Virus record (IMG/VR): IMGVR_UViG_3300048586_000854
Location: 1-34,803 of that record
Origin: a virus
Length of the DNA: 34,803 nucleotides
Reading direction: 5' to 3' (one strand)
Shown here: positions 4,029 through 33,383 of the stretch, piece after piece
Position numbering within the stretch: position 1 is the first letter of the stretch
Layout: every line of letters begins with the position of its first letter
Notes under the pieces: generated by a model
What the model saw: only the letters and a program-made list of their open reading frames with translations
Database searches by the model: none
What the model was told of the DNA's origin: nothing
Position numbers and translations under genes: made by a program

Positions 4029-4030
4029 GG

Positions 4031-4306
4031 TCAGGCTCCGGAGGAGGGGCGCGCCGCGCGCTGGGCGGCCATATGGGCGGCGTACGCCTTGCGGCATTCG
4101 TGTTCCGACGCCCATTTCGGGCGCGTCCAAAGGTTCAAGCGGGCGTGCGCCTCTTCGGTCAGCCCGTCGCGAAACAGGCTTTCGGCCTCGCTGGCGAGAT
4201 CGCATTCCAGCCCGCGTGCGCGGACGATCACGCTCTTGAAATCCTCGCGGGTGGCGGTGCCGTTCTTCACAAGGCCCCGAAGCCGGTAAATGCTTTCAGT
4301 GACCAT
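4031..4306 (-). CDS. Hypothetical early phage protein
   Basis: 91 residues, alpha-helical in appearance and mildly charged (YRLRGLVKNGTATREDFKSV, LASEAESLFRDGLTEEAHARL). No motif I can name. It lies 3 bp upstream of the clamp gene and overlaps the upstream zinc-protein gene by 11 bp, so it is co-transcribed with both. Confidence 0.55.
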   Translation of the reverse strand: MVTESIYRLRGLVKNGTATREDFKSVIVRARGLECDLASEAESLFRDGLTEEAHARLNLWTRPKWASEHECRKAYAAHMAAQRAARPSSGA

Positions 4307-4592: not shown

Positions 4593-4596
4593 TGCC

Positions 4597-18037: not shown

Positions 18038-18877
18038 ATGGCGCGGCTGAAGACGCTGCCAGCCCGGCTTGCTCCCGCGCCGTCTCGTCTTGCCACCCAG
18101 ACACATGCAGGTCCTGATCGAGATCGCGCCCGCAGCATCGCGGCGCCGTGGCGCGCTTGGTACGATCTCGCTCGCTGGAAAAAGCTGCGGCGCAGGGTGT
18201 TCCTGCGTGATCTATTCACCTGTCAGAGGCCGGAATGCGGGGCCGTGATCGCGGAGACGTCACGTCTCGTCTGCGATCACATCTTGCCGCATCGCGGCGA
18301 TGAGCGCCTGTTCTGGGATGAGGGCAATCTGCAGACGCTCTGCAAGCCTTGCCATGACAAGGTGAAGCAGGCGGAAGAGCGTCGCGGCATAAGCCGTGAG
18401 GCAGCAAGCAGGGCGGCGCCGGAGATACCGAGGCCGCGCATCCCGGTGGTGATCGTGTGCGGCCCGCCGGGATCGGGCAAAAGCACCTATGTCGCACGGC
18501 ACAAGGGGCCGAACGATCTCGTGATCGACCTCGATGTCATCAGGGCGCGCCTCTCGGGGGGTGGGTTGCATGCCCATGCTCCGGGCTTCACCGGCCACGC
18601 CCTTGAAGAGCGCAACAGAATGCTGGTGTCGCTTGCGACCGATACCACCCACGCCCTCGCTTGGTTCGTTGTGGCGGCGCCCACCGTGCAGGAGCGGCTG
18701 GCGTGGTCGGCGCAATTGGGCGAAGCCCGTGTGGTCCTGATGGATACCTGTCGGGAAGAGTGCCTTCGCCGCATCGCTTCCGACCCCAGCCGCAAGGGTG
18801 AGGTCGAGCGGATGGGGATGCTGGTGGACCAGTGGTTTGAGCGGGCCAAGCAATCCACCACTGCCCCAAGGGATTGA
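18038..18877 (+). CDS. HNH endonuclease fused to P-loop kinase-like domain
   Basis: 279 residues. Residues about 45-110 are an HNH nuclease: VFLRDLFTCQRPECG, CDHILPHRGDERLFWDEGNLQTLC with a CxxC-CxxC zinc site and the DHI catalytic His. Residues about 135-265 are a P-loop domain with Walker A GPPGSGKST, DLVIDLDVIRARL, and VVLMDTCREECLRRI, similar to AAA_33-type polynucleotide kinases. HNH proteins next to terS are needed for cos cleavage in HK97-type phages (family knowledge). Joining the nuclease to a kinase domain is unusual. It precedes the cos-like site and terS. Confidence 0.82.
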   Translation: MARLKTLPARLAPAPSRLATQTHAGPDRDRARSIAAPWRAWYDLARWKKLRRRVFLRDLFTCQRPECGAVIAETSRLVCDHILPHRGDERLFWDEGNLQTLCKPCHDKVKQAEERRGISREAASRAAPEIPRPRIPVVIVCGPPGSGKSTYVARHKGPNDLVIDLDVIRARLSGGGLHAHAPGFTGHALEERNRMLVSLATDTTHALAWFVVAAPTVQERLAWSAQLGEARVVLMDTCREECLRRIASDPSRKGEVERMGMLVDQWFERAKQSTTAPRD

Positions 18878-18925
18878 AGCGGTCGCAAGGTCGGCACTAC
18901 CCCACAAGGGGTCCCACGCGGGGCC

Positions 18926-18999
18926 GGGAGGGGGGTTGGAAAGTCTGGAAGGCCACTCGCTTCCCTACCCGCGCCCCCCATGTTCGGAGATTTTTTCCT
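18926..18999. other. cos-like packaging site of outer phage
   Basis: A G-run, a C-rich core ACCCGCGCCCCCCA and then GTTCGGAGATTTTTTCCT lie between the HNH gene and the start of terS, the usual place of cos in HNH-type siphophages. A 75-bp relative occurs at 21502-21576 in the inner element: 18967-18999 and 21544-21576 match at 32 of 33 bases, the whole at about 63 of 75. The terS ribosome-binding GGAG falls within it. The cut position cannot be read from sequence. Confidence 0.72.
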
Positions 19000-19491
19000 G
19001 TGAGCGATGAAAATTCCGAGCCGGTGCCGCAGGTTGATCTGTTCGGCCAGCCTATCCTGCCGATCCGTGATCGGCGGGGGCGCCCGTCCTTCAAAAAAGA
19101 CAAGACAAATCAAGACTTTGTAGCCGTTCGCGTGGCGGCGGGCTGGACGCAGAAGGCTATCGCCGACGACATGGGCATCGACGAGAAGACGCTGCGCAAA
19201 CATTTTTCCCGCGAGCTGGAGGTGGGGCGGCTGTCGATCGAGGGGCTGATGCTCGACGTGCTGCTCAAGCTGGTGCGCGAGGGGAAGACGGCGGCTGTCG
19301 GGCGGCTGCATGAGATGATGAAAGCCGCCGGGCCGCAGGCCCCCCGCAGCCGCGGCGCGAGCCTCGACGAGGACGACGATACCGAGGACGATCGGCCGGT
19401 GAAGGTGGGCAAGAAGGAACAGGCACAGAGGGACGCGCAGGATATCCCGCCGGACTACGGCGATATCTTCGCCCGGATGCAGCGGCACTGA
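19000..19491 (+). CDS. terS: Terminase small subunit
   Basis: 163 residues, GTG start placed directly after the cos-like site with GGAG 10 bp upstream. It has an HTH (VAAGWTQKAIADDMGIDEKTLRKHFSREL) that would bind the packaging site, a helical middle (LMLDVLLKLVREGKTAAVGRLHEMM) for oligomerisation, and an acidic, disordered stretch (DEDDDTEDD) before a short C-terminal tail that contacts the large subunit in other phages. Its stop overlaps the ATG of terL by one base. Confidence 0.8.
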   Translation: MSDENSEPVPQVDLFGQPILPIRDRRGRPSFKKDKTNQDFVAVRVAAGWTQKAIADDMGIDEKTLRKHFSRELEVGRLSIEGLMLDVLLKLVREGKTAAVGRLHEMMKAAGPQAPRSRGASLDEDDDTEDDRPVKVGKKEQAQRDAQDIPPDYGDIFARMQRH

Positions 19492-19775
19492 TGTCCGTCT
19501 CCTTCGCCTGTCCCGACTGGTTTGCCAAGCTGCAGGCCGGACAGAGCCCGATCCCGGCGTTGCCGCTCGACGACGTGCTGGCCGACTGCGCCGTCGCGCT
19601 CTTCAACAAGCTGCGCGTTCCGGACATCGCCGGCATGCCGACCATGGGCGAGGCCGCCGGCGAGTGGATGCGCGACATCGTGCGTGCGGCGTTCGGCTCG
19701 ATCGAACCGGAAACCGGCCGCCGTTTCGTAGGCGAGATTTTCAACCTCGTGCCGAATAACACCGATAAGCTCTGA
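19491..19775 (+). pseudogene. terL: terL 5' fragment, interrupted in the P-loop
   Basis: The first 88 codons are terminase large subunit: CPDWFAKLQAGQSPIPALPL and FGSIEPETGRRFVGEIFNLVP. After the Pro codon at 19752 the frame runs into six inner-element codons and stops at 19773. The normal family continuation of LVP is the Walker A PKKNGKT, and that is exactly what begins at 29550 on the other side of the inner element. So this fragment and 29550 onwards are one gene split by insertion. The fragment alone cannot bind ATP. Confidence 0.88.
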
Positions 19776-19780
19776 AAACG
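19750..19780. repeat. Inner element left attachment region
   Basis: Core TGCCGAA at 19750-19756, then CTGAAAACG at 19772-19780. The right end carries the same two parts in the reverse order: CTGAAAACG at 29523-29531 and the core at 29548-29554. In the circular form the core would be flanked by direct CTGAAAACG repeats 15-16 bp away on each side. Confidence 0.7.
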
Positions 19781-19800
19781 TATAGTCTAATCAATATCTT

Positions 19801-19835
19801 AACCCGCTTCGGAGGGCTTCCGGGGCGGGTTTCTT
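19801..19835 (+). terminator. Rho-independent-like terminator at inner left end
   Basis: AACCCGC at 19801-19807 pairs with GCGGGTT at 19825-19831, and the inner CGGA/TCCG extends the stem; TTTCTTG follows. It would stop transcription coming from terS and the terL fragment into the element. Confidence 0.6.
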
Positions 19836-19903
19836 GTTGCAAGCACCGCGATAAGAATTTCAATGACTTAGCCGGCTTTAGCCAAGGCTAGCCGCATCTG
19901 CGC

Positions 19904-19920
19904 GCGACAAGGGCGCGACA
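19904..19920. repeat. Inner integrase arm-type site, left copy
   Basis: GCGACAAGGGCGCGACA matches 29491-29507 at 16 of 17 bases. The two copies lie near opposite ends of the element in the same orientation, one just after the integrase stop, the other just before the excisionase gene, as integrase arm sites do. Confidence 0.55.
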
Positions 19921-19936
19921 TGAAAGGAACCTCAAC

Positions 19937-20158
19937 ATGGTCGACGGCTCCGACGCTACCGATTTGCTGTATGGCGTGGAGGCCATTTCGAAGTGCCTCA
20001 ACATGACGACCGCGCAAGTCTACCACCTGCACGCCAGAGGGCAGATACCGACGTTCAAAATCGGCAAGAAGGTCTGTTCCCGGCGCGCATCCCTCGCCGC
20101 ATGGCTCGCTGAGCAGGAGGCTAAGGCCAAGTCCCCCGCATCCGGCGGGATAGCCTGA
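19937..20158 (+). CDS. Excisionase/AlpA-like HTH protein of inner element
   Basis: 73 residues of the excisionase-type (MerR-like) helix-turn-helix: LLYGVEAISKCLNMTTAQVYHLHARGQIPTFKIGKKV, then SRRASLAAWLAEQEAKA. The ATG follows AAAGGAACCTC. Such proteins bend DNA at att sites and favour excision, and in satellites (AlpA) they also act as transcription activators. It is the first gene at the left end, next to the arm-like repeat. Confidence 0.8.
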   Translation: MVDGSDATDLLYGVEAISKCLNMTTAQVYHLHARGQIPTFKIGKKVCSRRASLAAWLAEQEAKAKSPASGGIA

Positions 20159-20171
20159 CGGTCGGTGCAAT

Positions 20172-20747
20172 GTGGCCGGCACCACAAGCAAGGATCGCCT
20201 GCGCTGGTTGCGAGCCATTGGTGTTGACTCTAAAACAACGCCATCTGAATTCTATGTTGCGTGGACTATAGAGCAGAGAATTCGCAACAGCACAGGCGAT
20301 GCACTCATAAGTCGCGAGCATATTGGTAGAATAACCGGACTTGGCGACAGGCGAATATCTGAAATTATTGTGGCGCTTGAAACGCGCCTCTGGCTAAGCG
20401 TGTGGCGCGCGAACGGGTTGGCGAACCGATATCGGCTCACATGGCCACCCTCGGCCGCCGCCGACGATTGCAAGAAAGTGCGCGCGACCGATGCGCCAGA
20501 GCGCGCGGGACCCATGCGCCTGAGTGCGCGCAATAACATCCTTAGAGAACCTTATGGTTCATCCTTGCCGAAATTCCCGGACAGAGCCGCCTATGAGGCG
20601 CAGCTGGCGAGCATCCTCGGCATCGAGCACGCGGACCTCGCGATACCAGACGGGGAGCTGTCTCGGCTGTGCCTGGCCCTCAAGCACGGCCGGATGACTG
20701 AGATTGACCTCGCAATGGCAATTCGCCTTCAACAAAAGAAGAGGTGA
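20172..20747 (+). CDS. wHTH protein, possible satellite replication protein
   Basis: 191 residues, GTG start. Residues about 25-100 form a wHTH (FYVAWTIEQRIRNS, ISREHIGRITGLGDRRISEIIVAL, ANRYRLTWPP), the N-terminal half of replication-initiator-like proteins. The C-terminal part is helical (AAYEAQLASILGIEHADLAI). Base composition is visibly more AT-rich than the outer phage, suggesting separate origin. Could be a regulator instead; no catalytic motif seen. Confidence 0.6.
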   Translation: MAGTTSKDRLRWLRAIGVDSKTTPSEFYVAWTIEQRIRNSTGDALISREHIGRITGLGDRRISEIIVALETRLWLSVWRANGLANRYRLTWPPSAAADDCKKVRATDAPERAGPMRLSARNNILREPYGSSLPKFPDRAAYEAQLASILGIEHADLAIPDGELSRLCLALKHGRMTEIDLAMAIRLQQKKR

Positions 20748-20751
20748 GCAT

Positions 20752-21072
20752 ATGTCGAGTAAGAATAGGCGGCTCATCGATAAGTTGGCGATAGAGGTGT
20801 TTCTCTGGTTCTATGAACTCACACGATCAAAGCGCGTCCGCAGAGGCGATATGATCGTCGCGTGGTTCATTGCCATATCCATGAGAGCGGATATGAAGAT
20901 AGAGATCACGATGAAGAGGCTTTCAGAGGCAGTGAATATGTCGGAACGCGCGCTTTCGTCAGCCATAGGGCGGTTGATCACGGCTGGATACTTGATCGCT
21001 CTGCGCCAGCCCGGGCGGCCGAACCGCTACATGCTGACCTATCCCGTCGATGGTGGTGCTGATGTCGACTGA
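20752..21072 (+). CDS. wHTH protein of inner element
   Basis: 106 residues with ATG after GAGGTGAGC. A winged helix is visible in ITMKRLSEAVNMSERALSSAIGRLITAGYLI and a wing-type end PNRYMLTYPV, which resembles the NRYRLTWPP of the preceding gene, so the two may be distant relatives. Probably DNA-binding. It overlaps the next gene by 11 bp. Confidence 0.6.
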   Translation: MSSKNRRLIDKLAIEVFLWFYELTRSKRVRRGDMIVAWFIAISMRADMKIEITMKRLSEAVNMSERALSSAIGRLITAGYLIALRQPGRPNRYMLTYPVDGGADVD

Positions 21073-21499
21073 TCTGCTGGCGTGGGCATGGAACGTGCCC
21101 GACCTTTCGCCTAGCGCTCGCCTTGTGCTGCTGGTGATCGCCGACACCTGCGACCATGCAGGCTACAGCCCGGCGGATCGCGAGCACCTGGCGATGCGGA
21201 CCGTACAGTCACCTGAGATCATCCAGCGCCGGCTGCGCGAGATGGAGGAGGCTGGGCTGATCGTGGGTCTGGGCAAAGGTATAAGGCTTCTGGCGACCAA
21301 GAGGGCGGTTGAGACAGTGCTGCCTGACCCCGACCGGCGCGCGCTGCGCGATCAGCGGGTGATGCAGGAGATGGAGCGGCGCAGGCTGGAGCGCGTCGAG
21401 CACACGGCAGAGGTGCGCGCGGCTGTAGCGAAGCGAGCCGAGGAAACAATCCGAGCTTTGGGAGGCATTGCCCCTAAGTCGAAGCGCCGTCGCCCGTAG
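21062..21499 (+). CDS. Third wHTH protein of inner element
   Basis: 145 residues. The N-terminal half carries LSPSARLVLLVIADTCDHAG, AMRTVQSPEIIQRRLREMEEAGLIV, a helix-turn-helix of the MarR/Rep type. The C-terminal half is a long charged helix (RVMQEMERRRLERVEHTAEVRAAVAKRAEETIRAL) ending in KSKRRRP. The stop is 3 bp before the cos copy. An ATG at 21050 is an alternative start. Confidence 0.6.
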   Translation: MSTDLLAWAWNVPDLSPSARLVLLVIADTCDHAGYSPADREHLAMRTVQSPEIIQRRLREMEEAGLIVGLGKGIRLLATKRAVETVLPDPDRRALRDQRVMQEMERRRLERVEHTAEVRAAVAKRAEETIRALGGIAPKSKRRRP

Positions 21500-21501
21500 A
21501 G

Positions 21502-21576
21502 GGGAGGGGGGGCTGAAAAGTCTTGGACCCCCCTCGCTTTCAGACCCGCGCCCCCCAAGTTCGGAGATTTTTTCCT
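21502..21576. other. cos-like site copy in inner element
   Basis: Relative of the outer packaging site at 18926-18999, same orientation: G-run, AAAGTCT, TCGCTT, then ACCCGCGCCCCCCA and GTTCGGAGATTTTTTCCT. The core (21544-21576) has one mismatch in 33. Similarity stops where terS begins in the outer phage; no terS follows here, and 427 bp of non-coding sequence leads to the capsid gene. Explained either as packaging-site mimicry by a satellite or as the remaining cos of a degraded phage. Confidence 0.72.
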
Positions 21577-22002
21577 TAGGACGTTTGATTTTTCGGATGT
21601 CCACATCTTTGGCCTAGGAAATAGGAGAAAAAACAATGGCTTAGAACAGGTCCCCTTCTTTGTGCGTGTTATAATTCCCGGCGTTGACGGATCGCTTGGC
21701 AGGGCTCAGTCTTTCCGTCGACTTGGCGCGCGTGATGCAGCCGCAGTTGACCGCATCCTTTGGGCTGCGGGTACGTGTATTCATCCTAGCTCCGCGTGAT
21801 GCAGGTTAGGACCTTCGACCGCATGCCCTGCGCTGCGGACGATCTGCGGGTGAGCGAGATGCAGCCCGATACGTGATCGCCTCGCGCGCCTGGCGCTGTG
21901 GGGCGGATCGCGGCTTCCGATTGGCGAACGGCCTTACCTAGCGTGTCCCGCTGGTGAAGCCCCTTCGCGCCTCAATTTCATCATCACGAAAGGCATAACG
22001 CT
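21577..22002. other. Non-coding leader with promoter and imperfect repeats
   Basis: No acceptable gene. It contains an extended -10 promoter (TGTTATAAT ending at 21675) and two imperfect repeats about 65 bp apart: GCGTGATGCAG at 21730-21740 and 21794-21804, each followed by GACCGCAT (21749-21756; 21817-21824) and CTGCGG (21765-21770; about 21833-21838), with a weaker third GATGCAG near 21858. It may be an untranslated leader, a small RNA or a binding array in front of the capsid gene. Confidence 0.5.
21667..21675 (+). promoter_or_regulatory. Extended -10 promoter
   Basis: TGTTATAAT: a perfect TATAAT preceded by TGn, an extended -10 that does not need a good -35. It lies about 330 bp upstream of the capsid gene and just downstream of the cos copy. 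Confidence 0.5.
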
Positions 22003-23463
22003 ATGAAGGCGTTTCGTTTTCTTGCCGTTCTCGGCATCGTGGCGGCGCTGGTTGCCGTCTCCGTACTGGTCGACCCCAACGCTGCGCATGCCGGTGTTGG
22101 GGCGCTCGCTGACGTATTCTCGATGTCGGCGCTTGCTGCGGCGGCAGCGCCGTCCGTGGGCGCGTCGCCGTCCAATCTGCGGCTCCATTTGGGTGACGCG
22201 TTCCCCGCGTCGCCGCTGGCGTCGATAACGCCGCCTCCGGCGCGCGGCATCATGTCGGTGAATGCTGGGCCGGTCCCCGATGATCCGGTGGCTGTATTCA
22301 ACGAGCTGAAACAGACCTTCGCGAGTTTCCAGACCAAGGAAACGAAGCGGATCGACAATATCATCGCTGGCGTCGATGAGATCAACGCGGCCATGGCTTC
22401 GCTCAAGCTCAGCGGGCTGGGCGGCGGTGGTGGCAATAACCCGCCTTCGTCGGCGCCGCATGACGATGTGAACGCTGCCCTGCGGGCTTACATCAACAAG
22501 GGCGACGATGGACCGTTGGCGGAACTCAATCCGCGCGGCGGGTTCGGTGTGCAGGCTTCGCTGACGTCGCAGTCCAACCCGGATGGCGGCTATACTGTCA
22601 TCCCCTATTTCACCGACTCGATCACCCGTCGCATCTACGACGTGTCGCCGCTTCGTCGTCTGGCGCGGGTGGTGCCCATCGGAACGGGGGCGTTGACGGA
22701 ACTGGTGGACGCCGACCAGGCGGCTGCGGAGTGGGTTGGCGAAGAGGAAGGTCGTCCGGAAACGGCCTCGCCGAAGCTCGGCCAACTGGAGATCCCGGCG
22801 CGTGAAATCTACGCGGCGCCGAAGATCACCCAGACCCTTCTCGATGATTCGAACATCGACCTCGCCAACTGGCTGGTTGAGAAAGTCGGTGATCGTCTGG
22901 GCCTGAAGGAGGGGCAGGCATTCGTTGCCGGCGATGGCGTGAAGCGGCCGCGCGGGTTCCTCACCTATGCCAAGAGCGCGGACGACGATGGGGCCCGGCC
23001 GTGGGGCACGCTGCAGTATGTGCCGAGCGGCAACGCCAGCGGCTTCACTACCTCGCCGTCGCCGGGCGATTGCCTGATCGACCTCGTTTACACCATGAAG
23101 GCGACCTTCCGTCCCGGCGCGGTGTGGCTGATGAACCGCAAGACCGCTGGAACCATTCGCAAGTTCAAGGATGGGGACGGCAATTACATCTGGCACGAAT
23201 CCATGCAGGCCGGCCAGCCGTCGCTTCTGCTGGGGCATCCCGTCGAGCTGGACGAGAACATGCCCAACGTCGCCGCTGGCGCCTTCCCGATCGCCTTCGG
23301 CGACTTCCGGCGTGGCTACACCATCGTTGATCGTCATGCCACGCGCGTGGTGCGCGACCCCTATTCGGCCAAGCCTTACGTGGTCTTCTACTGCTACCGC
23401 CGCGTCGGTGGCGCTGTGAACGACTTCGAGGCGATCAAGCTCCTTAAGATCAGCGAGACCTGA
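22003..23463 (+). CDS. HK97-fold major capsid protein with signal-peptide-like N-terminus
   Basis: 486 residues. From about 84 on it is an ordinary HK97 capsid protein: a delta-like coiled coil (FNELKQTFASFQTKETKRID), then GGYTVIPYFTDSITRRIYD, SPLRRLARVV, E-loop region AAEWVGEEEGRPETASPKLG, and a C-terminal domain with WLMNRKTAGTIRKFKDGDG and LLGHPVELDENMP. Residues 1-30 read as a Sec signal peptide: MKAFR, a hydrophobic core, then NAAHA-G. The ATG has GAAAGG 9 bp upstream, favouring translation of the extension; an internal ATG at 22252 would give a normal-length protein. Confidence 0.88.
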   Translation: MKAFRFLAVLGIVAALVAVSVLVDPNAAHAGVGALADVFSMSALAAAAAPSVGASPSNLRLHLGDAFPASPLASITPPPARGIMSVNAGPVPDDPVAVFNELKQTFASFQTKETKRIDNIIAGVDEINAAMASLKLSGLGGGGGNNPPSSAPHDDVNAALRAYINKGDDGPLAELNPRGGFGVQASLTSQSNPDGGYTVIPYFTDSITRRIYDVSPLRRLARVVPIGTGALTELVDADQAAAEWVGEEEGRPETASPKLGQLEIPAREIYAAPKITQTLLDDSNIDLANWLVEKVGDRLGLKEGQAFVAGDGVKRPRGFLTYAKSADDDGARPWGTLQYVPSGNASGFTTSPSPGDCLIDLVYTMKATFRPGAVWLMNRKTAGTIRKFKDGDGNYIWHESMQAGQPSLLLGHPVELDENMPNVAAGAFPIAFGDFRRGYTIVDRHATRVVRDPYSAKPYVVFYCYRRVGGAVNDFEAIKLLKISET

Positions 23464-23637
23464 TCTCCTCCGAGCAATCGCGGCTTCCTGTCAGGAGGGC
23501 GGGGAGCTGCGAGGCGCGCTGTAGTGCTGCGCGCCCGGACAAGTCGGCGAGTGTCCGCAACAACCCCGACAGCCGGCGGCCCCCGCTCCTCGGGCGCGCG
23601 GCCGGCAACTCCCTCAACACGAATGGAGGCTCGCCCG

Positions 23638-25410
23638 ATGGCGAAAGGACAAGTCGTCGGCGCCCTGCGCGTCAGTCTCGGCCTCGATAGCGCCGAGTTC
23701 GAGAACAGCCTCGCGCAGTCGGGCAAGCAGGCCAAGACCTTCGCGAGGGAAACCGAGGCCAGCATGGGGGCCTTGGCGAAAGGCGTTTCGGCCGCTGCCG
23801 CTGGCATCCGCGCCGGCATCGCCGGGCTCACCTTCGCTGCGGTGACGACTGCCATTCAGGGCTCTGTCAGCGCCCTCGCCGAACTGGACGATCAGGCGAA
23901 ACGCTCCGGCCTCTCGCTCCAGTCTTTCCAAGAATGGAGGTTTGTCGCCGAGCGCAACCGCATCGGCCTCGACGCCATGGTGGACGGGTTCAAGGAATTG
24001 AGCCTGCGCGCGGATGAGTTCATCACCACGGGCGGCGGCAGCGCGGCCGAGGCGTTCCAGCGTCTCGGTTTCAGCGCCGAAGACCTGGCCAAGCGCATGG
24101 CCGATCCCTCGGAGATGATGCTGGAGATCATTAAGCGGCTCGGCGACCTCGATAAGGCGGCGCAGATACGCATTTTCGATGAACTGCTCGGAGGTTCCGG
24201 TGGCGAGCAGTTCGTGCAGCTGATCGACCAAGGCGAGAAGGGGCTGCGGGCGACGATCCAGCGGGCGCACGAACTGGGCGGCGTGCTGCAAGACGACGTG
24301 ATCAAGAAAGCGTCGGAGATCGACAAGCAGTTTCAGGAGATCGCCGCGACCATCAATAACGGCTTCAAGGCTGCCGTGGTCGGCGTCGTGTCGAGCCTCG
24401 ACCAGATGCTGAACCGGCTCGACAAGGTCGGGAAGCAGAAGGACGACACCGTAGCGGCGCGCCTGGACGAAACAAACCGGGAGTTGACCCAGCTTCAGGG
24501 TCTCGCCGATTCCTACGCGCCCGGTTCGTGGCAGAAGGACGCCTTCCTTTCCCAGTTCGGCCCCCGGCTGGAGGCGCTGAAGGCGGAAAAATTCGAACTC
24601 GAAACGGTTCTCAATCTCCGCAAGGCGTTCTCCGCTGTGGATTTCGGCGGCAACCTTCCGCCCGTCGGCTCCGGCGCCCCTCCCGCCACACCCCAAGCGA
24701 CCGGCGGGGCCTCCGCGCCGGCTGAAGATCCGGTGGCGGCTCAACTCGCCTCGCGCATCGAAAGCCTCAAGCTGGCGCTGTCGACCGAGCGCGAGCTTGA
24801 AGTTGCCGCCCATGAGCAGCGACAGGCGGACCTCCTTGCCTCTTTCGAGTCCGGCAAGATGGCGCGCGAGGAATACAACCAGTGGACCGAGCGGGAGCAG
24901 GCGGCGCATGCCGAGCGCATGAGCGCTATCGCCGAAAATCAAGCCGCTTCGGAAAGGCAGAAGCTGCAGGACACATTCAGCTTCACGGCGGACACGTTCG
25001 GCAGCCTGGCGGCGCTTGCGCAGACCTTCGGCGAAAAGGGGTTTGCAGCGGCCAAGGCGTTCGGCATCGCCGAAGCGGTCGTAAACACGGCGGTCGGCGT
25101 CACCAAGGCGCTGGAGCTGCCCTTCCCGGTGAACATGGCAGCGGCTGCTTCCGTTGCCGCTGCCGGCGCGGCGCAGATCGCCACCATTCTTTCAGCCCGG
25201 CCGGGCGGATCGAGCAGGCCGAGCGTGAGGGGCGCAGCTGTCGCTACAACCCCGCCGGCCGGCTCGCGCGACACCGGCGGGGATGGAGGCGGGCGCGTCG
25301 CTTACATCAACATCCAAGGGTCGAGCGTGACGGTGACCAAGGATCAGGCTTTGGAAATGTTCAGGCAGCTTCAGGAACTCATTGATGATGGATACAAGCT
25401 CAAATTCTGA
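23638..25410 (+). CDS. Tail tape-measure protein
   Basis: 590 residues. The start pattern MAKGQVVGALRVSLGLDSAEFENSL is typical of tape measures, followed by a hydrophobic segment (AAAAGIRAGIAGLTFAAVTTAI), helical repeats through the middle, and a C-terminal hydrophobic alanine-rich region (AEAVVNTAVGVTKAL, AAASVAAAGAAQIATILSA). Tape measures set siphophage tail length; at about 1.5 angstrom per residue this predicts a tail near 90 nm (rule of thumb). The GGAGG site supports the ATG at 23638. No major tail protein gene precedes it. Confidence 0.8.
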   Translation: MAKGQVVGALRVSLGLDSAEFENSLAQSGKQAKTFARETEASMGALAKGVSAAAAGIRAGIAGLTFAAVTTAIQGSVSALAELDDQAKRSGLSLQSFQEWRFVAERNRIGLDAMVDGFKELSLRADEFITTGGGSAAEAFQRLGFSAEDLAKRMADPSEMMLEIIKRLGDLDKAAQIRIFDELLGGSGGEQFVQLIDQGEKGLRATIQRAHELGGVLQDDVIKKASEIDKQFQEIAATINNGFKAAVVGVVSSLDQMLNRLDKVGKQKDDTVAARLDETNRELTQLQGLADSYAPGSWQKDAFLSQFGPRLEALKAEKFELETVLNLRKAFSAVDFGGNLPPVGSGAPPATPQATGGASAPAEDPVAAQLASRIESLKLALSTERELEVAAHEQRQADLLASFESGKMAREEYNQWTEREQAAHAERMSAIAENQAASERQKLQDTFSFTADTFGSLAALAQTFGEKGFAAAKAFGIAEAVVNTAVGVTKALELPFPVNMAAAASVAAAGAAQIATILSARPGGSSRPSVRGAAVATTPPAGSRDTGGDGGGRVAYINIQGSSVTVTKDQALEMFRQLQELIDDGYKLKF

Positions 25411-25729
25411 ACCCGATGGGGCGGCGGCTGACGGCTCCGGGGGTGGCGCAGGAATGCGTCACCACCTTATCGCCGCCCGAGCGGAGGCGCAGGCGACCCA
25501 TATCTTGATCGGCGCGCTGCTCGCGCATCTTCGCCTCCGCCGCGCCGTTACTGCCGACTTTGCGGCGACAATCCGCACCCTTGAGGCAGGCGCCACGGGG
25601 CGCCTGGGCGACGTGTACGACGCGGCATTCCGCGACGCCATCGCCATCATGCTTTCGCAGATCGAGCCGGCCGGCGGCGACAAACCCCGCCACCCCAAGC
25701 CCAAACTTTCCCTTGTGACGGAGAACTGA
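25385..25729 (+). CDS. Small helical phage protein
   Basis: 114 residues overlapping the end of the tape measure by 26 bp. Helical, Ala/Arg-rich (HLIAARAEAQATHILIGALLAHLRLRRAV, DAAFRDAIAIMLSQIEPAGG). The next ATG follows its stop by one base. Not recognised; probably part of tail assembly by neighbourhood. Confidence 0.5.
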   Translation: MMDTSSNSEPDGAAADGSGGGAGMRHHLIAARAEAQATHILIGALLAHLRLRRAVTADFAATIRTLEAGATGRLGDVYDAAFRDAIAIMLSQIEPAGGDKPRHPKPKLSLVTEN

Positions 25730-25730
25730 C

Positions 25731-26099
25731 ATGACCGCGTTTCGCAACCCCGGCGCTACCTTGCAGGCCGGCGGCACCACCTATTCGCTTTCCTTCTCCA
25801 TGCGCGCCATGTGTGCGCTGGAAGACGCTCTCAATAGGACCGCGCCTGATGTCGTGGTGGAATTGATAAAAGCGGGAAGTGATGCGAAGACCTTGCGCAT
25901 GAAGACGCTGCTCGTCGTGCTGTGGGTGATGCTGCGGGACAACCATCCCGAGATCGACGAAGACGGGGCGAGCGACATCGCCACTGCGGCCGGCGTTATG
26001 GCGACGCTGGTGGCCGTTGCGGCAGCTGCTGCGGCGGCCTTTCCGCCGCCCAAGAAGGGCGCACAGCCGAAGGAGGAGGCGCGCCCTCAGACGGCGTAG
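25731..26099 (+). CDS. GTA-type tail-assembly-chaperone-like protein (zero frame)
   Basis: 122 residues: NPGATLQAGGTTYSLSFSMRAMCALEDALN resembles the first tail-chaperone protein of gene transfer agent-like phages, and the C-terminus is Ala- and Lys-rich (PPPKKGAQPKEEARPQTA). The neighbouring ORF in the -1 frame has the matching second chaperone domain, as expected if ribosomes slip near the end. Usually this pair lies before the tape measure; here it lies after it, which is unusual. Confidence 0.6.
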   Translation: MTAFRNPGATLQAGGTTYSLSFSMRAMCALEDALNRTAPDVVVELIKAGSDAKTLRMKTLLVVLWVMLRDNHPEIDEDGASDIATAAGVMATLVAVAAAAAAAFPPPKKGAQPKEEARPQTA

Positions 26100-26422
26100 G
26101 GTTCCTAGACCCCGAGCCTCTGTACCGCGCCTGGGTGCGGGCAGGGCTGGACCCTGCGCAGTTCTGGCGCTCCACCTTCCGCGAGGTGGCGGCCTGTATC
26201 GAGGAGCGCGGCGAGGCGGATCGCCTTGAACACAACGACAGGGCATGGATGGCCTGGCACATCGCCGCCCTGTCCCGCATGAAGAAGCTGCCGAAGCTGG
26301 CCGAACTGCTGATAAAGCCCCGCAAGGCACAGCCTGTGCGGCCTCAGACGTGGCAGGAGCAACGGGCCATTTGCATGCAGTGGGTGGCGGTGACGAAGGC
26401 GGCGGCGGCGAGGCGGCGGTGA
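26096..26422 (+). CDS. Second tail-chaperone domain in -1 frame
   Basis: The frame continues through the stop of the previous gene and lacks an ATG near its beginning; GLDPAQFWRSTFREVAACIEE matches the FW..T.RE pattern of tail-assembly chaperone partners, then DRAWMAWHIAALSRMKKLPKLAELL. Production by -1 frameshifting or by a GTG at about 26132 are the options; no perfect slippery heptamer was found. Start is therefore approximate. Confidence 0.5.
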   Translation, partial: VGFLDPEPLYRAWVRAGLDPAQFWRSTFREVAACIEERGEADRLEHNDRAWMAWHIAALSRMKKLPKLAELLIKPRKAQPVRPQTWQEQRAICMQWVAVTKAAAARRR

Positions 26423-26428
26423 CGGGTT

Positions 26429-26737
26429 TTACCCGTTCGCCGCCTTCTCCAGCGCCTCGGCCATGCGGCTGCGCCAATCCTTGCCGCTCGCCTTGAACCT
26501 CTCCACCGTGGCGGGGTCGAGCCGTAGGGTGACAGCCTCCTTCGGGCTTTCCACCTTCGGCCGTCCGCGCGCGCGCTTGATGCTCGCCATCAGGTCCGGG
26601 AACGCCTCGGCGAACGGCTTGGCCTGCGCCATCTGTTCGTCGGTAAGCTCCGGGTTATCGGCATCGGTAGCGATGCCCCGTTGAATGACCGCCTCTTCCT
26701 CGTCGGAGAGCGGGTGCGTGTGCTTGGTGCCGGTCAT
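26429..26737 (-). CDS. brnA: BrnA antitoxin
   Basis: 102 residues. Features of BrnA: an acidic N-terminal half (PLSDEEEAVIQRGIATDADNP, ELTDEQMAQAKPFAEAFPDL) and a ribbon-helix-helix C-terminus (VTLRLDPATVERFKASGKDWRSRMAEAL). BrnA neutralises BrnT and represses the operon by binding the promoter. Order on the minus strand is brnT then brnA, the usual one. Confidence 0.82.
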   Translation of the reverse strand: MTGTKHTHPLSDEEEAVIQRGIATDADNPELTDEQMAQAKPFAEAFPDLMASIKRARGRPKVESPKEAVTLRLDPATVERFKASGKDWRSRMAEALEKAANG

Positions 26738-26751
26738 GAACCCTCCTTGGT

Positions 26752-27006
26752 CTACGGCTGGAGACGACTTCTCTCTTTCCGGGTAGCCCGGCGCATGGAG
26801 ATGACGGAAAGCGCCTCCGAGCCGAGGGGCTTGAAGACGACGGCGACAATGATCCGGCCGTGAAGCTCGCCGACTGCCACATAGCGGCCATCCCGCGAGG
26901 GGACGACGACCGAGCCGGCGAAGAAATCGAGATCGAGGGCGGCGAAGTCCATGCCGTGCTTGGCAAGGTTCGATTGGCGCTTCGGCTCGTCCCACGTGAT
27001 CATCAT
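26752..27006 (-). CDS. brnT: BrnT ribonuclease toxin
   Basis: 84 residues with the BrnT pattern: ITWDEPKRQSNLAKHGMDFAAL, DFFAGSVVVPSRDGRYVAVG, and a C-terminal ISMRRATRKERSRLQ. BrnT is a RelE-fold ribonuclease that blocks translation (family knowledge). ATG at 27006 or 27003. The pair would stabilise the inner element or act in defence. Confidence 0.85.
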   Translation of the reverse strand: MMITWDEPKRQSNLAKHGMDFAALDLDFFAGSVVVPSRDGRYVAVGELHGRIIVAVVFKPLGSEALSVISMRRATRKERSRLQP

Positions 27007-27010
27007 GATG

Positions 27011-27058
27011 AATATGCGTACACGGAAAATAAGAGCCGGTCAATCTTATCTGTGTACG
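27011..27058 (-). promoter_or_regulatory. BrnTA promoter/operator
   Basis: CGTACAC at 27017-27023 and GTGTACG at 27052-27058 form an inverted repeat, with AATAAG/CTTAT also complementary, around a leftward TTGACC (complement of 27038-27043). A -10 (TACGCA) lies 17 bp downstream inside one arm. Fits autoregulation by BrnA. Confidence 0.5.
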
Positions 27059-27070
27059 AAAAATATGCGC

Positions 27071-27242
27071 GCGCCTTCGCATCCCTCTTGGCGAGAGGGG
27101 CGAAGCAGCGCATAAATGGGATTGGGTGTGAGAGCCCGGACGAAAGATAGACCACGGATCGGCTTGGCGGCTGATCGGTGGCGACGCAGGTAGCCCTTTG
27201 GCGAGGGCTTGCTGCAACTGGCGGCACCTTGGCGGGTGCGCC
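27071..27242. ncRNA. Array of hairpins with TTGGCG loops, possible structured RNA
   Basis: Four stems each expose TTGGCG in or next to the loop: 27071-27111 (a long stem, GCGC, CTTCG, CCCTCT paired), 27152-27180, 27192-27209 (AGCCCT/AGGGCT) and 27220-27242 (GGC.G.CACC/GGTG.C.GCC). A related TTGGCC follows near 27257. No gene covers this interval. The strand and any function are unknown; a structured leader for the next gene or a protein-binding RNA are possibilities. Confidence 0.4.
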
Positions 27243-27395
27243 GACCTGGCCATCTTGGCCGGGAGCGGTGCTCTATGTCCAGAGGGTTCGCCCTTAAAAG
27301 TGCGCCGGCTTGTCTCTTTCGCAAGCTCTCACCTCCCGGCTGCTGGCCCGATGCCAGCGACGGCTGTGAGAGGCCGAACGAAAGAGACCAATCCC

Positions 27396-28016
27396 ATGTA
27401 CATCGGAGAAGACTACGGAGGGCCGTTCCCGCCCCCGCTTGCCGACCGGCTGAATGCCCGCCGGGAGCTTTCGCGCATCATCGAGTCGGCGCTGTCCATG
27501 CTCGATGCCCTCGACACTATCGACGCCGACCGCGAGCCGGATGGTGACGAGCTTGATGCCAGCTGGCCGGAGCAATCTGGCCCGTGCATTTCGGGGCGGG
27601 CCGTGCCGCAGGAAGACGACGAGCCTTCGCTCGGCTGGCACGCCATCGGCGGTGGGTGCTGGTACTTCGATGATGGCAGCGACCGTGAACGGGACGCGCT
27701 GGACGAGCCGGACGGCTACGACAGCGACAGGGAGCCCGCTCTGGCCGCGCCGGAGAGTTTTCCCCGCATCTGCTACGGCGGGCCGCTCCCCGCCGCCTAC
27801 GGCTTCCCTGACCGGCTGCGGGGCGCTTCCGGCGGCGATCAATCGCGATGGGCTATCGGCTGCGCCAATGACCGCGAGGAAGACGCGGGCGACGATGCCG
27901 AGGCCGAGAACGAGCACGGCGGCGATATCCTCGACCAGCCGCACGATGACGACGACAGCGGCATCGCCGACCATGACGGCCTGTGGGAGCAGGCGCAGCG
28001 GGAGGCGTGGGCATGA
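27396..28016 (+). CDS. Acidic accessory protein of inner element
   Basis: 206 residues, very acidic, with proline-rich ends (MYIGEDYGGPFPPPLADRLN; DILDQPHDDDDSGIADHDG). A helical segment RRELSRIIESALSMLDALDTID is followed by DEPSLGW, a combination seen in accessory proteins of alphaproteobacterial islands. No fold or activity recognised. It overlaps the next gene by ATGA. Confidence 0.6.
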   Translation: MYIGEDYGGPFPPPLADRLNARRELSRIIESALSMLDALDTIDADREPDGDELDASWPEQSGPCISGRAVPQEDDEPSLGWHAIGGGCWYFDDGSDRERDALDEPDGYDSDREPALAAPESFPRICYGGPLPAAYGFPDRLRGASGGDQSRWAIGCANDREEDAGDDAEAENEHGGDILDQPHDDDDSGIADHDGLWEQAQREAWA

Positions 28017-28249
28017 CGGCGCCAGCCTTGACGCATCTGCGCGAGATCCATCTGCCGGCGTTGGACGCGGCTCGCTTCTGCCTCGCGGCGCGGCTGATGG
28101 TGGAAGGCTTGAGGGATGAGCTAAGCCCGCCTCATTCCGACGCGCTGCAAGCGGTGCTGTTCCATGCCTGCGATAGGCTGGAGCAGATAGACCGGCAGAT
28201 TGAGCACTGGTGTGCAAGCCTCGCCGAGGCCGGCAGCGCCGCGAACTGA
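28013..28249 (+). CDS. Small helical hypothetical protein
   Basis: 78 residues (LREIHLPALDAARFCLAARLMVEGLRDEL, FHACDRLEQIDRQIEHWCASL). Coupled to the acidic-protein gene by a 4-bp overlap, so translated together with it. Function unknown. Confidence 0.5.
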   Translation: MTAPALTHLREIHLPALDAARFCLAARLMVEGLRDELSPPHSDALQAVLFHACDRLEQIDRQIEHWCASLAEAGSAAN

Positions 28250-28256
28250 CACCCTC

Positions 28257-28286
28257 GCCGGCCGCGCCCGGTGAGGTGCGGCCGGC
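28257..28286 (+). terminator. Perfect GC hairpin before integrase gene
   Basis: GCCGGCCGC (28257-28265) and GCGGCCGGC (28278-28286) are fully complementary around a 12-base loop, followed by TTCCCCTC. The T-tract is weak; it could attenuate transcription into the integrase gene or act as a protein site. Confidence 0.5.
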
Positions 28287-28313
28287 TTCCCCTCATATTC
28301 AGGAGTTGAAGCT

Positions 28314-29489
28314 ATGGCGAGCGTGGCAAAGCGCGAGTGGACCCATAAGGGCGAGACGAAAACGGCGTGGGTGGTGCGCTACACCGATCAGGGCGGCAAG
28401 CGCCGCATGAAGACATTCGAGAAGAAAAAGGATGCTGACAAGTATCGCAACAAGGTTGAAACCGAAGTCGAGCGCGGGGAGCACGTCCCGGATCGTGAGA
28501 CCGCCACCGTGTCACAAGCCCTTGATTTGTGGCTCGATCATTGCGAGGGGAGGGTGCGTGTTAAAGATCATCTTCGCCCGCGCACGCTTCGCCATTACCG
28601 GAGCTGGGTCGAAAACCATATTCGGCCGTCCCTAGGCGGCCTGAAGCTCACGTCACTGACAATTCATCTTCTGCAGAAATGGGTGGATGATCAGGCGTTC
28701 GACCGCGAGCGGCCACGTTCTCACGACACGCTGATGAACTCTGCCCTTTGCCTGCGGATGATGTTGAGGCACGCACACCGCCATAATCTGGTGGGTCGCA
28801 ACGTGCTGGTTGATCATGAATTGCGCATTCCCGGCAAAAAGGGCGAGCGACTCGAAATACCGAGCAAGGATGATGTCAGGCGCTTTCTCGAATGGAGTGG
28901 CGAGGTGACAGGCCCGGGCGGCGTGGCGCCATATCTGCGCCCCATGATTTTCACGGCGGTGTTTGCCGGCCTGCGGCAGGGCGAGCTAAGAGCGCTGACG
29001 TGGGAGAATGTCGATTTTGACGCGAAGATCATCCGCGTCCGCCAGTCGGCCGACAATTTCGGGCTAATCACCGAGCCAAAATCGCGGGCGAGCATTCGCG
29101 ACGTGCCGCTGGCGCCCGTACTCTCCATCGAGTTGAAGAAGCACAAACTGGCCTGCGGGCGTTCCAAATCACCGCTTGTGTTCCACACGCGCAGCGGTGG
29201 CGTGATCGATCCTGGGGGGGTGCATCAGGCGTGGCAGCGGCTTCAGCACCGTGCAGCGAATGGCGGCAGGGGGCAGACAGCATGCCCACTCGGCAGGTTC
29301 ACCTTTCACAGTCTGCGCCATGTGTGCGCCAGTCTTCTGATAGAGACGGGCCTGCCGCCCAAGCGGGTGCAGGCGATAATGGGGCACTCTTCGATCCAGA
29401 TGACGTTTGATCGCTACGGTCATCTTTTCGAGGATGGCGATGCCGTCACGGTCGCCATGGGCAAAATTGGTGCCTCCCTCACGGCTTGA
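28314..29489 (+). CDS. int: Tyrosine recombinase (integrase of inner element)
   Basis: 391 residues with the full catalytic set: Arg in FAGLRQGELRALTW, Lys in TEPKSRASIRDV, HSLRH, GHSSIQMTF and the Tyr in DRYGHLF. The N-terminus has the arm-binding domain (REWTHKGETKTAWVVRY, GGKRRMKTFEKKKDADKYR), followed by a SAM-like core-binding domain. All residues needed for activity are present. It ends 58 bp from the right core site. Its target is the terL P-loop coding sequence, an uncommon site. Confidence 0.92.
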   Translation: MASVAKREWTHKGETKTAWVVRYTDQGGKRRMKTFEKKKDADKYRNKVETEVERGEHVPDRETATVSQALDLWLDHCEGRVRVKDHLRPRTLRHYRSWVENHIRPSLGGLKLTSLTIHLLQKWVDDQAFDRERPRSHDTLMNSALCLRMMLRHAHRHNLVGRNVLVDHELRIPGKKGERLEIPSKDDVRRFLEWSGEVTGPGGVAPYLRPMIFTAVFAGLRQGELRALTWENVDFDAKIIRVRQSADNFGLITEPKSRASIRDVPLAPVLSIELKKHKLACGRSKSPLVFHTRSGGVIDPGGVHQAWQRLQHRAANGGRGQTACPLGRFTFHSLRHVCASLLIETGLPPKRVQAIMGHSSIQMTFDRYGHLFEDGDAVTVAMGKIGASLTA

Positions 29490-29490
29490 C

Positions 29491-29554
29491 GCGACAAGAG
29501 CGCGACAAGAACAGCTAAGTGGCTGAAAACGGCTAGGTTAATTCTTCTGCCGAA
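29491..29554. repeat. Inner element right attachment region
   Basis: Arm-like repeat GCGACAAGAGCGCGACA (29491-29507), CTGAAAACG (29523-29531) and core TGCCGAA (29548-29554). The frame is open from the codon after the integrase stop into terL, so stop readthrough would join the two. Confidence 0.65.
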
Positions 29555-31358
29555 GAAGAACGGCAAGACCACGAACGCCGCCGCGCTCGGCCTGATTGCC
29601 CTGATGATGAACCGGCGCCCGAATGTCGATGGCATCATCGTCGGCCCCACGCAGGAGGTCGCCGACAAGTGCTTCGCCCAGGCGGCGGCGATGATTGCGG
29701 CTGACCCCTACCTGTCGCGCCGTTTCAAGGTGAAGGAGCACATCAAGACGATCATCGATCTGCATGTGGACCCGGTCACCGGCGTGCAGATGAATGCGAA
29801 GCTTAAGATCAAGAGCTTTGATCCGAAGGTCGTCACAGGGTCGATCCCCGCCTTTGCGATCCTCGATGAACTGCACGTCATGGCGCACGCCAAATATGCG
29901 AGCCACGTCATCGGCCAGATCCGGGGTGGCATGGTGACGAATGAGGAGAGCCTGCTCATCATCATCACCACGCAGTCTGAGGTGGAGCCGTTCGGGGTCT
30001 TCAAGGAAGAGCTCGACTATGCGCGCGGCGTGCGTGACGGACGCATCACCGAAGGCGTGCGGATGCTGCCGATCCTCTATGAGTTCCCCGAGGCGATGCA
30101 GATCGCCGAAGACAAGCCATGGAAGAATCCGAAGAATTGGCCGGCGGTGCTCCCGAACCTTGGGCGCTCCATCACCATTGATCGTCTGACGGCGGAATGG
30201 CGGACGGCGCAGGACAAGGGCGACGGTGCGGCGCGCGAATGGGCGTCGCAGCACCTCAATATTCAGATCGGCCAGGCGCTGCATCACGGACGGTGGATCG
30301 GGGTCGATTTCTGGCCGGCGGCGGCGGATCGGCGCATCACGCTCGACTATCTCATCGCTCATTCGGACGTGATCACGTTCGGCGGCGATGTCGGCGGGCT
30401 CAAGGATCTCTGGGGCCTTGCCGCTCTGGGGCGGCACAAGGTCACCCGGCATTGGATGCTGTGGGTGCCGCAGATCCTCGGCGAGAACCACGCCATGGTG
30501 GGCTTTGCGACCGTGCAGGACATGGTGCGCGCCTTCCTCGACGACGAGGAAACGCACCTCGAGGCCATGGTGGCCTTCATTCGTGAGGCGAAGATCGACG
30601 ACGATCTGCGCCGCATCGCGGCACTGAAGCGCCCGTCGACGGCCGAGGATTGGCGGGAAGTGGCTCGGGCCTATAACGGCCCGAAATACGCCAAGCACGG
30701 CTACCACACCCGGCTGGCCAAGGCGCATGTGAAGTGGCGCGGCATCGCGGATACGCCGTGGTCGGCGCCGCTACCGCCGGCCCGGCCGGCAGAGGCAACC
30801 GCGCCGGCACCGGCTCCAGTCTCTAGCATGACTGACTATGAGGTGCGCGCGCTGCAGCAGCAGCTGAAGGATGCGCTTTACGATCCGGGCTTCATCGACG
30901 GCAAGATGGGGACGCGCACCCGGGCGGCGCTGTTCGCCTTCCAGACCGACAACGGCCTGCCGGCGACCGGAGAGATGAACGCGGAGACGCGCGCATTCAT
31001 CCTCGCCCATGGCGTGCCGACGCGGCAGCTGGCGCCGGAGCGCGAGCGCGCCACGGCGGCGAGCCTCGCCGAGGCCGGGCGATTGCCACCGGCGGCGCAG
31101 GCGGCCCTCAAGGGCGGCTGGTGGGCCAAGCTGCAGGCGGTGCTTGGCGCCATTGCCATGGCGATCTACGGCGCGTGGGAACGGTCCGGCGACGCGCTGT
31201 CGTCCCTCTCGCCCTTCAAGGAGGATCTGCTCGCCGCCGGGCCGTGGCTGTTCTTCGCCGCGGTGATCGGCATTTCGCTCGTGCTGTGGCTGCGCTCGCG
31301 CAACGCCCTTGACCAGACGGTGCGGGCGGTGCGCCTCGGCCGCGATACGGGGGCGTGA
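29550..31358 (+). pseudogene. terL 3' part fused in frame to muramidase C-terminus
   Basis: From 29550 the frame continues Walker A (PKKNGKTTNAAAL), then Walker B (FAILDELHVM), motif C (LIIITTQSEV) and the first nuclease Asp (FGGDVGGLKDLWGL). At about 30462-30470 (LW|VPQILGEN) it changes to a DUF3380-type N-acetylmuramidase: HAMVGFATVQDMVRAFLDD, ARAYNGPKYAKHGYHTRLAKA. It ends with a peptidoglycan-binding domain (LQQQLKDALYDPGFIDGKMGTRTRAALFAFQ) and a TM helix. The terminase nuclease lacks its later acidic residues, and the muramidase lacks its N-terminal catalytic part. No start codon of its own before 29604. Confidence 0.85.
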
Positions 31359-31361
31359 GCG

Positions 31362-31706
31362 ATGGGGTTGATCTCGCGCAAGCTCCGCACCGTCGAGGGC
31401 GGTGGACTGATGTTTTGGTGCCCCGGCTGCGACGGGGCTCACATGGTGCGCGTCGGCGAGGGTGATGGCCCGCGCTGGGGCTACAACGGCAACCCCGATG
31501 CGCCGACTTTCACGCCCTCCGTTCTGGTTCGTGGCGTCGACCGCCTCACCGACGAGGAGCGCGAGCAGGTGATGGCCGGCCAGCACGTCGAGCCTCGCCC
31601 CATCGTCTGCCATTCCTTCGTGACCGATGGACGAATCCAGTTCCTCGCCGACTGCACGCACGATCTGGCCGGCTTCACGGTCGATCTGCCGGATTGGGAG
31701 TCGTGA
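31362..31706 (+). CDS. DUF6527-like protein of lysis region
   Basis: 114 residues with a Cys pair in FWCPGCDGAHMV and later CHSFVTDGRIQFLADCTHDLAG, matching the small Cys-containing DUF6527-type proteins common next to holin genes in alphaproteobacterial phages. Function not established. Confidence 0.65.
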   Translation: MGLISRKLRTVEGGGLMFWCPGCDGAHMVRVGEGDGPRWGYNGNPDAPTFTPSVLVRGVDRLTDEEREQVMAGQHVEPRPIVCHSFVTDGRIQFLADCTHDLAGFTVDLPDWES

Positions 31707-31708
31707 CG

Positions 31709-32128
31709 ATGGGGCTGACCTGGAAAATCGTCACCTGGGCGCTTTCCTTCGCGTCCAGCGGCACGGTCGGCCGGGTACTCGACACGCTCGACAAGCGGAC
31801 CGACGCGCAGACCGAGCGCGAGCGGGTCGCGGCGGAGGTCACACGGGAGGCCATCCGCGCCGAGGTGGAAGCACGGCGGGCCGGGCGCGACGTGCTGATT
31901 GCCGAGCAGGGCCGATGGTACACGGCCATTATCCGCCCGCTGCTGGCACTGCCTGTCATCATCTTCTTCTGGAAGGTGATTGTGTGGGACAAGGTGTTCG
32001 GCTGGGGCACGACTGACCCGCTCACGGGTGCGGCGGCCGAATGGGCGGGGGCCATCGTCACCACCTATGTCGGTGGGCGCACCGTCGAGAAGGTGGCGAG
32101 CACTCTTTCCGCACGGTGGGGGCGGTGA
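31709..32128 (+). CDS. Holin (3TM type)
   Basis: 139 residues. A long helical charged region (RTDAQTERERVAAEVTREAI) precedes hydrophobic segments ITWALSF-like at the N-terminus, AIIRPLLALPVIIFFWKVIVW and AAEWAGAIVTTYVGG, the pattern of the 3TM_holin family. It would permeabilise the membrane for the endolysin. The stop overlaps the next ATG by one base. Confidence 0.78.
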   Translation: MGLTWKIVTWALSFASSGTVGRVLDTLDKRTDAQTERERVAAEVTREAIRAEVEARRAGRDVLIAEQGRWYTAIIRPLLALPVIIFFWKVIVWDKVFGWGTTDPLTGAAAEWAGAIVTTYVGGRTVEKVASTLSARWGR

Positions 32129-32481
32129 TGGCCGATATCCCGCCTGACCCGGCCCTGTGGGGCATCAAGATCGCCCACCTTGCGGCTGGTTTCATCGGCG
32201 GGCTCGCCCGCTCGCTGACGCACCCGGGCGGCTCGCTGGCGCGGCATGTGTGCGCCGCTGTCGTCGGCACCGCTGTCGCCGGCTATGGCACGCCCATCGG
32301 CGCGCATTTCGCGGCGCGCTGGCTGGCGGCGCCGGAGATATCGCCTGCCTCCGTCGAGGGGATGGTGGGCTTTATCCTGGGGCTCATCGGCATGTCGCTG
32401 TGCGAGGCGGCGATCCGCTGGGTGCGCCGCTGGCGAGACGGCCCGCCGCCAGGATGGAGGCCGCCGCCATGGCCTCGGTGA
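32128..32481 (+). CDS. Membrane protein of lysis cassette
   Basis: 117 residues with three hydrophobic stretches (IAHLAAGFIGGLA, VCAAVVGTAVAGYG, GMVGFILGLIGMSLCEAA) and an Arg/Pro-rich tail. Probably a second holin or antiholin by position; not recognised as a family. Confidence 0.6.
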   Translation: MADIPPDPALWGIKIAHLAAGFIGGLARSLTHPGGSLARHVCAAVVGTAVAGYGTPIGAHFAARWLAAPEISPASVEGMVGFILGLIGMSLCEAAIRWVRRWRDGPPPGWRPPPWPR

Positions 32482-33305: not shown

Positions 33306-33329
33306 CTGGTCGGGGCAGCAGGATTCGAA
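33306..33329. repeat. attR of outer prophage (in tRNA-Pro)
   Basis: Same 24 bases as 617-640. It forms the 3' part of the intact tRNA-Pro, including the encoded CCA, so integration leaves the tRNA functional. Confidence 0.93.
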
Positions 33330-33383
33330 CCTGCGACCTGAAGTACCCAAAACTTCCGCGCTACCGGGCTGCGCTATGCCCCG
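33307..33383 (-). tRNA. tRNA-Pro (anticodon UGG)
   Basis: On the minus strand the 77 bases fold as a full tRNA: acceptor CGGGGCA/TGCCCCG, D-arm GCGC/GCGC, anticodon stem GAAGT/ACTTC with loop TTTGGGT (anticodon TGG, G at 37), T-arm GCAGG-TTCGAAT-CCTGC, and encoded CCA. Host gene and integration target of the outer prophage. Confidence 0.96.

Follow-up and report, generated by a model that had tools for sequence, protein, structure and literature searches.

The window, the whole 34,803 nt stretch of DNA that was analysed, reads from its sequence as a composite of two elements at a tRNA-Pro gene of an Ancylobacter-type host. An outer prophage, here the helper, is bracketed by copies of the 3' end of the tRNA gene, and its large terminase (TerL) gene is interrupted twice, by an inner element and by a fusion to a muramidase gene. 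The features of the outer prophage are as follows.

617-643 (no strand): attL of the outer prophage, 27 bp, copy of the tRNA-Pro 3' end, direct repeat with 33306-33332
732-1982 (-): outer prophage integrase (PF00589, phrog_1)
18874-19491 (+): probable terminase small subunit (TerS) ORF, sitting before TerL, with likewise placed relatives in L003 and L004; phrog_12540 (unknown function)
18926-18999 (+): putative helper cos/pac site, upstream of the TerS-like ORF; 75-bp block, 84% identical to 21502-21576
19491-19749 (+): N-terminal fragment of the helper TerL, up to Walker A (phrog_7622, terminase); 63% identical to the L003 TerL N-terminus
29548-30464 (+): remainder of the helper TerL, ATPase and start of the nuclease domain (PF03354, phrog_9); about 60% identical to L003
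30464-30467 (+): deletion junction TerL/muramidase; L003 likeness ends at 30464, L013 likeness starts at 30466
30468-31358 (+): C-terminal half of the muramidase, peptidoglycan (PG)-binding domain and hydrophobic tail (PF11860 columns 95-174, PF01471); 85% amino acid identity to L013
31362-31706 (+): DUF6527 ORF (PF20137)
31694-32128 (+): holin-like ORF (phrog_3427)
32041-32481 (+): holin-like ORF (phrog_2359)
33306-33383 (-): tRNA-Pro(tgg) (ARAGORN) and attR of the outer prophage, direct repeat

The outer prophage also has its own DNA polymerase III beta-clamp-like gene (2817-4205, minus strand; PF00712/PF02767/PF02768, phrog_947).

The terminase-muramidase junction and the missing late region

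A 605-codon ORF (29541-31358) begins as TerL and continues in frame as the C-terminal half of a muramidase (PF11860). TerL accounts for about residues 1-310/350 (phrog_9, PF03354), residues 311-399 match only columns 95-174 of the 175 in the PF11860 profile, and a PG_binding_1 domain follows. In alignments, likeness to the TerL of L003 (60-61% identity) stops at position 30464, residue W308, and the muramidase of L013, from a prophage of Ancylobacter aquaticus, aligns from position 30466 on with 85% nucleotide identity. The junction therefore falls within 30450-30480 and leads from the terminase nuclease domain into mid-muramidase, as the first-pass annotation had it. A TGG codon is present at the junction in both relatives, on the TerL side and on the muramidase side, so any microhomology is at most a few bases. 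The frame is open for about 600 codons, as had been noted, which is no evidence of upkeep. Each half comes from a gene, and a random join keeps the frame one time in three, so no function is needed to explain it.

Neither the junction peptide nor the junction 27-mer turned up elsewhere, in scans that may have run without the window's own or near-identical records. The fused protein as a query found no relative among the genome contigs, and the late region had no Megablast match among phage records. In the muramidase part dN/dS against L013 is 0.17, with no relaxed constraint, and the polarised amino acid changes number 3 on the branch of the window and 4 on that of L013. These values are consistent with a recent deletion and do not decide for or against retention. 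The endolysin of L005 (9344-10534) has the same C-terminal PG-binding/hydrophobic part as the window muramidase behind a different N-terminal domain, lysozyme-like by eye, a module exchange that occurred in nature close to the site of the fusion.

The extent of the loss can be seen by comparison with a full-length relative, as the first-pass annotation had advised. The portal family PF04860 has no match anywhere in the window and PF03354 matches the helper TerL only. In region L123-L126, Xanthobacteraceae bacterium 501b carries a prophage of the same type at the same tRNA-Pro site; it is the prophage also labelled L006/G001, and its att repeats lie at positions 13623 and 68476 of the oriented region. 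In A. polymorphus (L009) the site is present without such a prophage. The outer integrase region of the window (617-2190) is 86.8% identical to that of 501b. The inner element lies 25,980 bp from the tRNA-Pro in 501b and 3,758 bp from it in the window, a late region of 26.0 kb against one of 3.76 kb, so that the portal, head and tail genes are indeed missing from the outer prophage. The TerL of 501b belongs to a different family from that of the window (24% identity), and the 501b prophage is thus a counterpart and not the direct parent.

The lysis cassette had been called intact. This stands for the DUF6527 ORF and the two holin-like ORFs, which look whole, and fails for the muramidase, which lacks the N-terminal half that L013 has in full. 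The N-terminal half of PF11860 muramidases is expected to hold the catalytic glutamate. Taken together, the helper appears to have lost the stretch from the TerL nuclease domain through mid-muramidase, the two gene ends meeting in frame. The fusion itself, on this sequence evidence, reads as a true but ordinary deletion scar in an abandoned helper.

The element inside TerL and its relatives

A further interruption of the helper TerL lies at its Walker A codons, where a 9,798-bp element (19750-29547) has inserted. This element has the following features.

19750-19756 (no strand): attL core TGCCGAA, 7 bp in common with 29548-29554 at the TerL discontinuity
19937-20155 (+): HTH_17/excisionase-like gene; 90% amino acid identity to the gene of the L006 element
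21050-21499 (+): replication-initiator-like gene (phrog_1032)
21502-21576 (+): copy of the putative helper cos/pac block, matching it at 84%
22003-23463 (+): major capsid protein (PF05065, E 2.9e-85); 44% identical to the 501b satellite capsid
23524-25410 (+): tape measure protein (phrog_10574); 39% identical to the G002 satellite tape measure
25731-26099 (+): GTA-gp10/TAC_11-like tail gene (phrog_2115; PF11836 below cut-off)
28314-29489 (+): tyrosine integrase (PF00589), in a late-gene clade set off by a 100/100 branch
29548-29554 (no strand): attR core TGCCGAA, 7 bp in common with 19750-19756

The frame 19491-19775 opens with the TerL N-terminus and leaves TerL at Walker A, and TerL picks up again at 29548. 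The 7-bp core was derived from this discontinuity; a search for long exact repeats gave nothing at the right place. Joining the flanks in silico restores the TerL frame (LVPKKNGKTT). The terminase is fused at its end, as had been claimed, with its N-terminus not lost but cut off at 19491-19749 by the 9.8-kb insertion. The integrase is the last gene of the element and ends 59 bp before the core. The L006 counterpart of the HTH gene matches HTH_17 (just below its cut-off) and phrog_66. No portal or terminase of the element's own was found in 19750-29547, and no prohead protease was found before its capsid gene, where the 501b element has one. The capsid ORF has an N-terminal extension of ~100 residues (22003-22300) that starts with a hydrophobic, signal-like stretch. 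A 274-aa ORF on the minus strand (26429-27253) has a BrnA antitoxin domain confined to residues 199-272; its first 190 residues are without a match and no BrnT partner was identified.

The integrase of the element as a query led to L006-L008 and others. In 501b (L006) a 10,474-bp element with a 16-bp core (copies at 32022 and 42496 of the oriented region) lies in the Walker A codons of a TerL unrelated to that of the window, and carries an HTH gene, a replication gene, protease, capsid, tape measure, tail assembly chaperone and integrase. The elements of G002 (10.5 kb) and G003 (9.9 kb) are within the capsid gene, and a 16.0-kb element in G008 is at the end of TerL, before the portal gene. Insertions read by eye from the flanking translation, with left ends not mapped, are in TerL before the nuclease domain (G010 and G011), in the capsid gene (G009) and in the protease gene (G013, L094). 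When the element is removed in silico, the TerL frame closes again in the window and in 501b, as does a protease-capsid frame in G002 and G003. Among 782 genomes, 397 drawn from the order and 385 from the class, an integrase search at E <= 1e-75 added insertions in portal and in TerL in two more genomes; the contigs of G281 and G300 are too short to show cargo. In G281 an antirepressor-like ORF (pRha/Bro-like by eye) lies beside the late-gene integrase in the portal gene (L150/L151 region, reverse-complement 3930-4730). One further candidate, G004, has two portals and two TerLs and was rejected as tandem prophages.

The elements of the window, 501b (G001), G002 and G008 carry both capsid and tape measure. 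That of G003 has a capsid, and no tape measure was found in it; that of G010 has protease and capsid. A 1178-aa ORF of G010 has no family match but is similar to ORFs of G009 and of the G010 helper region, and we would guess that it is a tape measure. Tape measures of satellite and helper are 648 and 1113, 675 and 686, and 738 and 805 aa, and no claim of shorter tails is made because those of the satellites are not uniformly shorter. The portal occurs once per record and outside the element in G001, G002, G003, G008 and G010, as does TerL in the four of these five with a PF03354 match. In G001, G002, G003, G008 and the window the HTH gene comes first in the element and the integrase last, with 51-63 bp between the integrase and the downstream core.

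In a tree of 31 integrases, one 100/100 branch parts ten late-gene insertions from sixteen in tRNA genes, frequencies that are biased since the search began from late-gene elements. This final tree is without L121, L138, the outer integrase and the integrase of Eco567.11capE (11capE), which form long branches; a first tree that included them was not clean. More distant integrase matches are mostly in tRNA genes.

In four of the records a putative packaging region ties the element to its helper. When the helpers were divided into tiles (97-175 per record), the best DNA match to the record's own satellite was the tile just upstream of TerS-TerL in four out of four records (E of 9e-18 in the window, 2e-20 in 501b, 5e-15 in G002 and 1e-22 in G003). 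There is one block each, 82-96% identical between helper and satellite. The block sequence differs from pair to pair, and matched pairs are far above mismatched ones. L003 has a similar GC block, ending GAGATTTTTT, in the corresponding position. Most simply read, each satellite likely carries the packaging site of its own helper, a putative cos. No TerS-upstream block in common with the helper was found in G008 and G010, where the similarity to the helpers is in the capsid only. The G002 satellite has two copies of the block, before and after the capsid gene (L105 8619 and 10916). A small-terminase-like gene (phrog_83) is present in the G008 satellite (L109 10555-10911), perhaps as an alternative packaging strategy.

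A probable satellite in an abandoned helper

The inner element does not read as an ordinary second prophage. Being co-oriented in a late gene, without portal or large terminase and with a packaging-site block in common with its helper, it is better described, as far as its sequence goes, as a helper-embedded satellite, which splits the outer TerL at Walker A and recurs in the late genes of other prophages. We put the probability at about 0.85 that the window holds a temperate helper whose TerL is interrupted in its Walker A codons by a 9.8-kb satellite, and which was abandoned through a deletion of which the fusion is the scar. The satellite has inserted in these codons, and the helper appears to have lost TerL nuclease domain to mid-muramidase before or after that insertion. 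While integrated, the satellite would switch off the packaging motor of the helper. On induction it would excise, the helper terminase would cut its copy of cos, and it would combine the portal, tail and lysis functions of the helper with a capsid and tape measure of its own. In the window the helper is dead, and the satellite would therefore be stranded until a related helper enters. Counting against this model are the att core of only 7 bp, the absence from the window satellite of the prohead protease of 501b, and the missing TerS-upstream match between satellite and helper in G008 and G010.

The inner element bears phage head and tail genes and the window is clearly a place of decay, and so the window might hold one ordinary prophage inside another, the inner one being a decayed phage that by chance landed in the outer TerL and has since shed most of its genes. 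This is unlikely, as the same layout, end positions and missing genes are found in independent records, in the late genes of different helpers, and the satellites have helper-matched copies of the TerS-upstream block. Decayed nested prophages do show deleted morphogenesis genes and fused reading frames; here, however, the inner element recurs as a unit whose ends and cargo are defined. A joining of two prophages at the W codon (30464) during assembly would explain why the halves of the fusion have different nearest relatives, and the evidence is from sequence only. Such an artefact is very improbable, given that the attL and attR on either side of the contig belong to a single composite and stand in the expected order, that the host flanks match one genome on both sides, and that the muramidase relative is at the same tRNA-Pro locus in A. 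aquaticus. It is hard to credit that the fusion is functional, or that the remnant is kept for a benefit such as superinfection exclusion or lysis control, in spite of the 605 open codons and of a muramidase part with a dN/dS of 0.17 and no excess of changes. While the satellite is in place the start of TerL is 9.8 kb away and Walker A is split, the muramidase is without its N-terminal half, and the scans made found no second copy of the fusion.

Comparison with known satellites

Helper-embedded PICIs (HE-PICIs) were described in 2023 in Enterobacteriaceae at 14 late-gene sites, with Eco567.11capE as the type element (PMC10111431). They have a cos-region block in common with the helper and captured late genes; many of the helpers are truncated, and satellites abandoned in such helpers are noted (PMC10111431). 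The elements described here resemble them in being about 10 kb, in lying inside late genes of the helper (terminase, capsid, portal, protease) in the same orientation, and in having a capsid gene, an HTH_17/AlpA-type gene and a block of the putative helper cos region aboard, with the interrupted gene not replaced (PMC10111431). HE-PICIs have the integrase and then AlpA at the upstream end, a Bro zone, a primase and a doubled TGTATTGC motif flanking attP (PMC10111431). In contrast, the integrase here is last, at the downstream end, and that of the window falls outside the 11capE clade: it aligns with the 11capE integrase over 215 aa at 22.8% identity and 32 bits, whereas its scores with the other late-gene integrases are 139-427 bits. 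The doubled TGTATTGC motif has 0 matches in the window with up to 3 mismatches allowed. A tape measure and a tail gene are carried beside the capsid. As to primase and Bro-network genes, the satellites gave replication-initiator matches only, in a scan that took in part of the small ORFs. Where the host is known it is Ancylobacter/Xanthobacteraceae or another alphaproteobacterium, whereas the HE-PICI survey was of Enterobacteriaceae. The elements thus appear to work like HE-PICIs yet lack that clade's integrase, layout and attP-motif features.

The cos-type SaPIs with Ccm are a further parallel, as satellites bearing a homologue of the helper capsid protein; SaPIbov5 is reported to redirect the capsid shape of its helper (PMC8569155). 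No earlier description of satellites such as those reported here was found for the Alphaproteobacteria in the openly available journal literature. SaPIbov5 is not known to be embedded in its helper or to carry a tape measure.

It is tentatively suggested that the Alphaproteobacteria hold separately evolved helper-embedded satellites with their own determinants of head and tail length (capsid, tape measure and tail-completion genes), which might hence form satellite-specific particles from the portal, tail and terminase of the helper. The satellite in its abandoned helper is the part worth following, more than the fusion itself. These elements suggest that satellite integrases came to target prophage late genes on more than one occasion, and that this is no enterobacterial peculiarity. 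With the paired sequences it could be tested whether the packaging site of a satellite changes along with its helper, and whether particle size is altered when capsid and tape measure are carried together. Odd nested prophages and split terminase genes of Alphaproteobacteria deserve a second look in this light.
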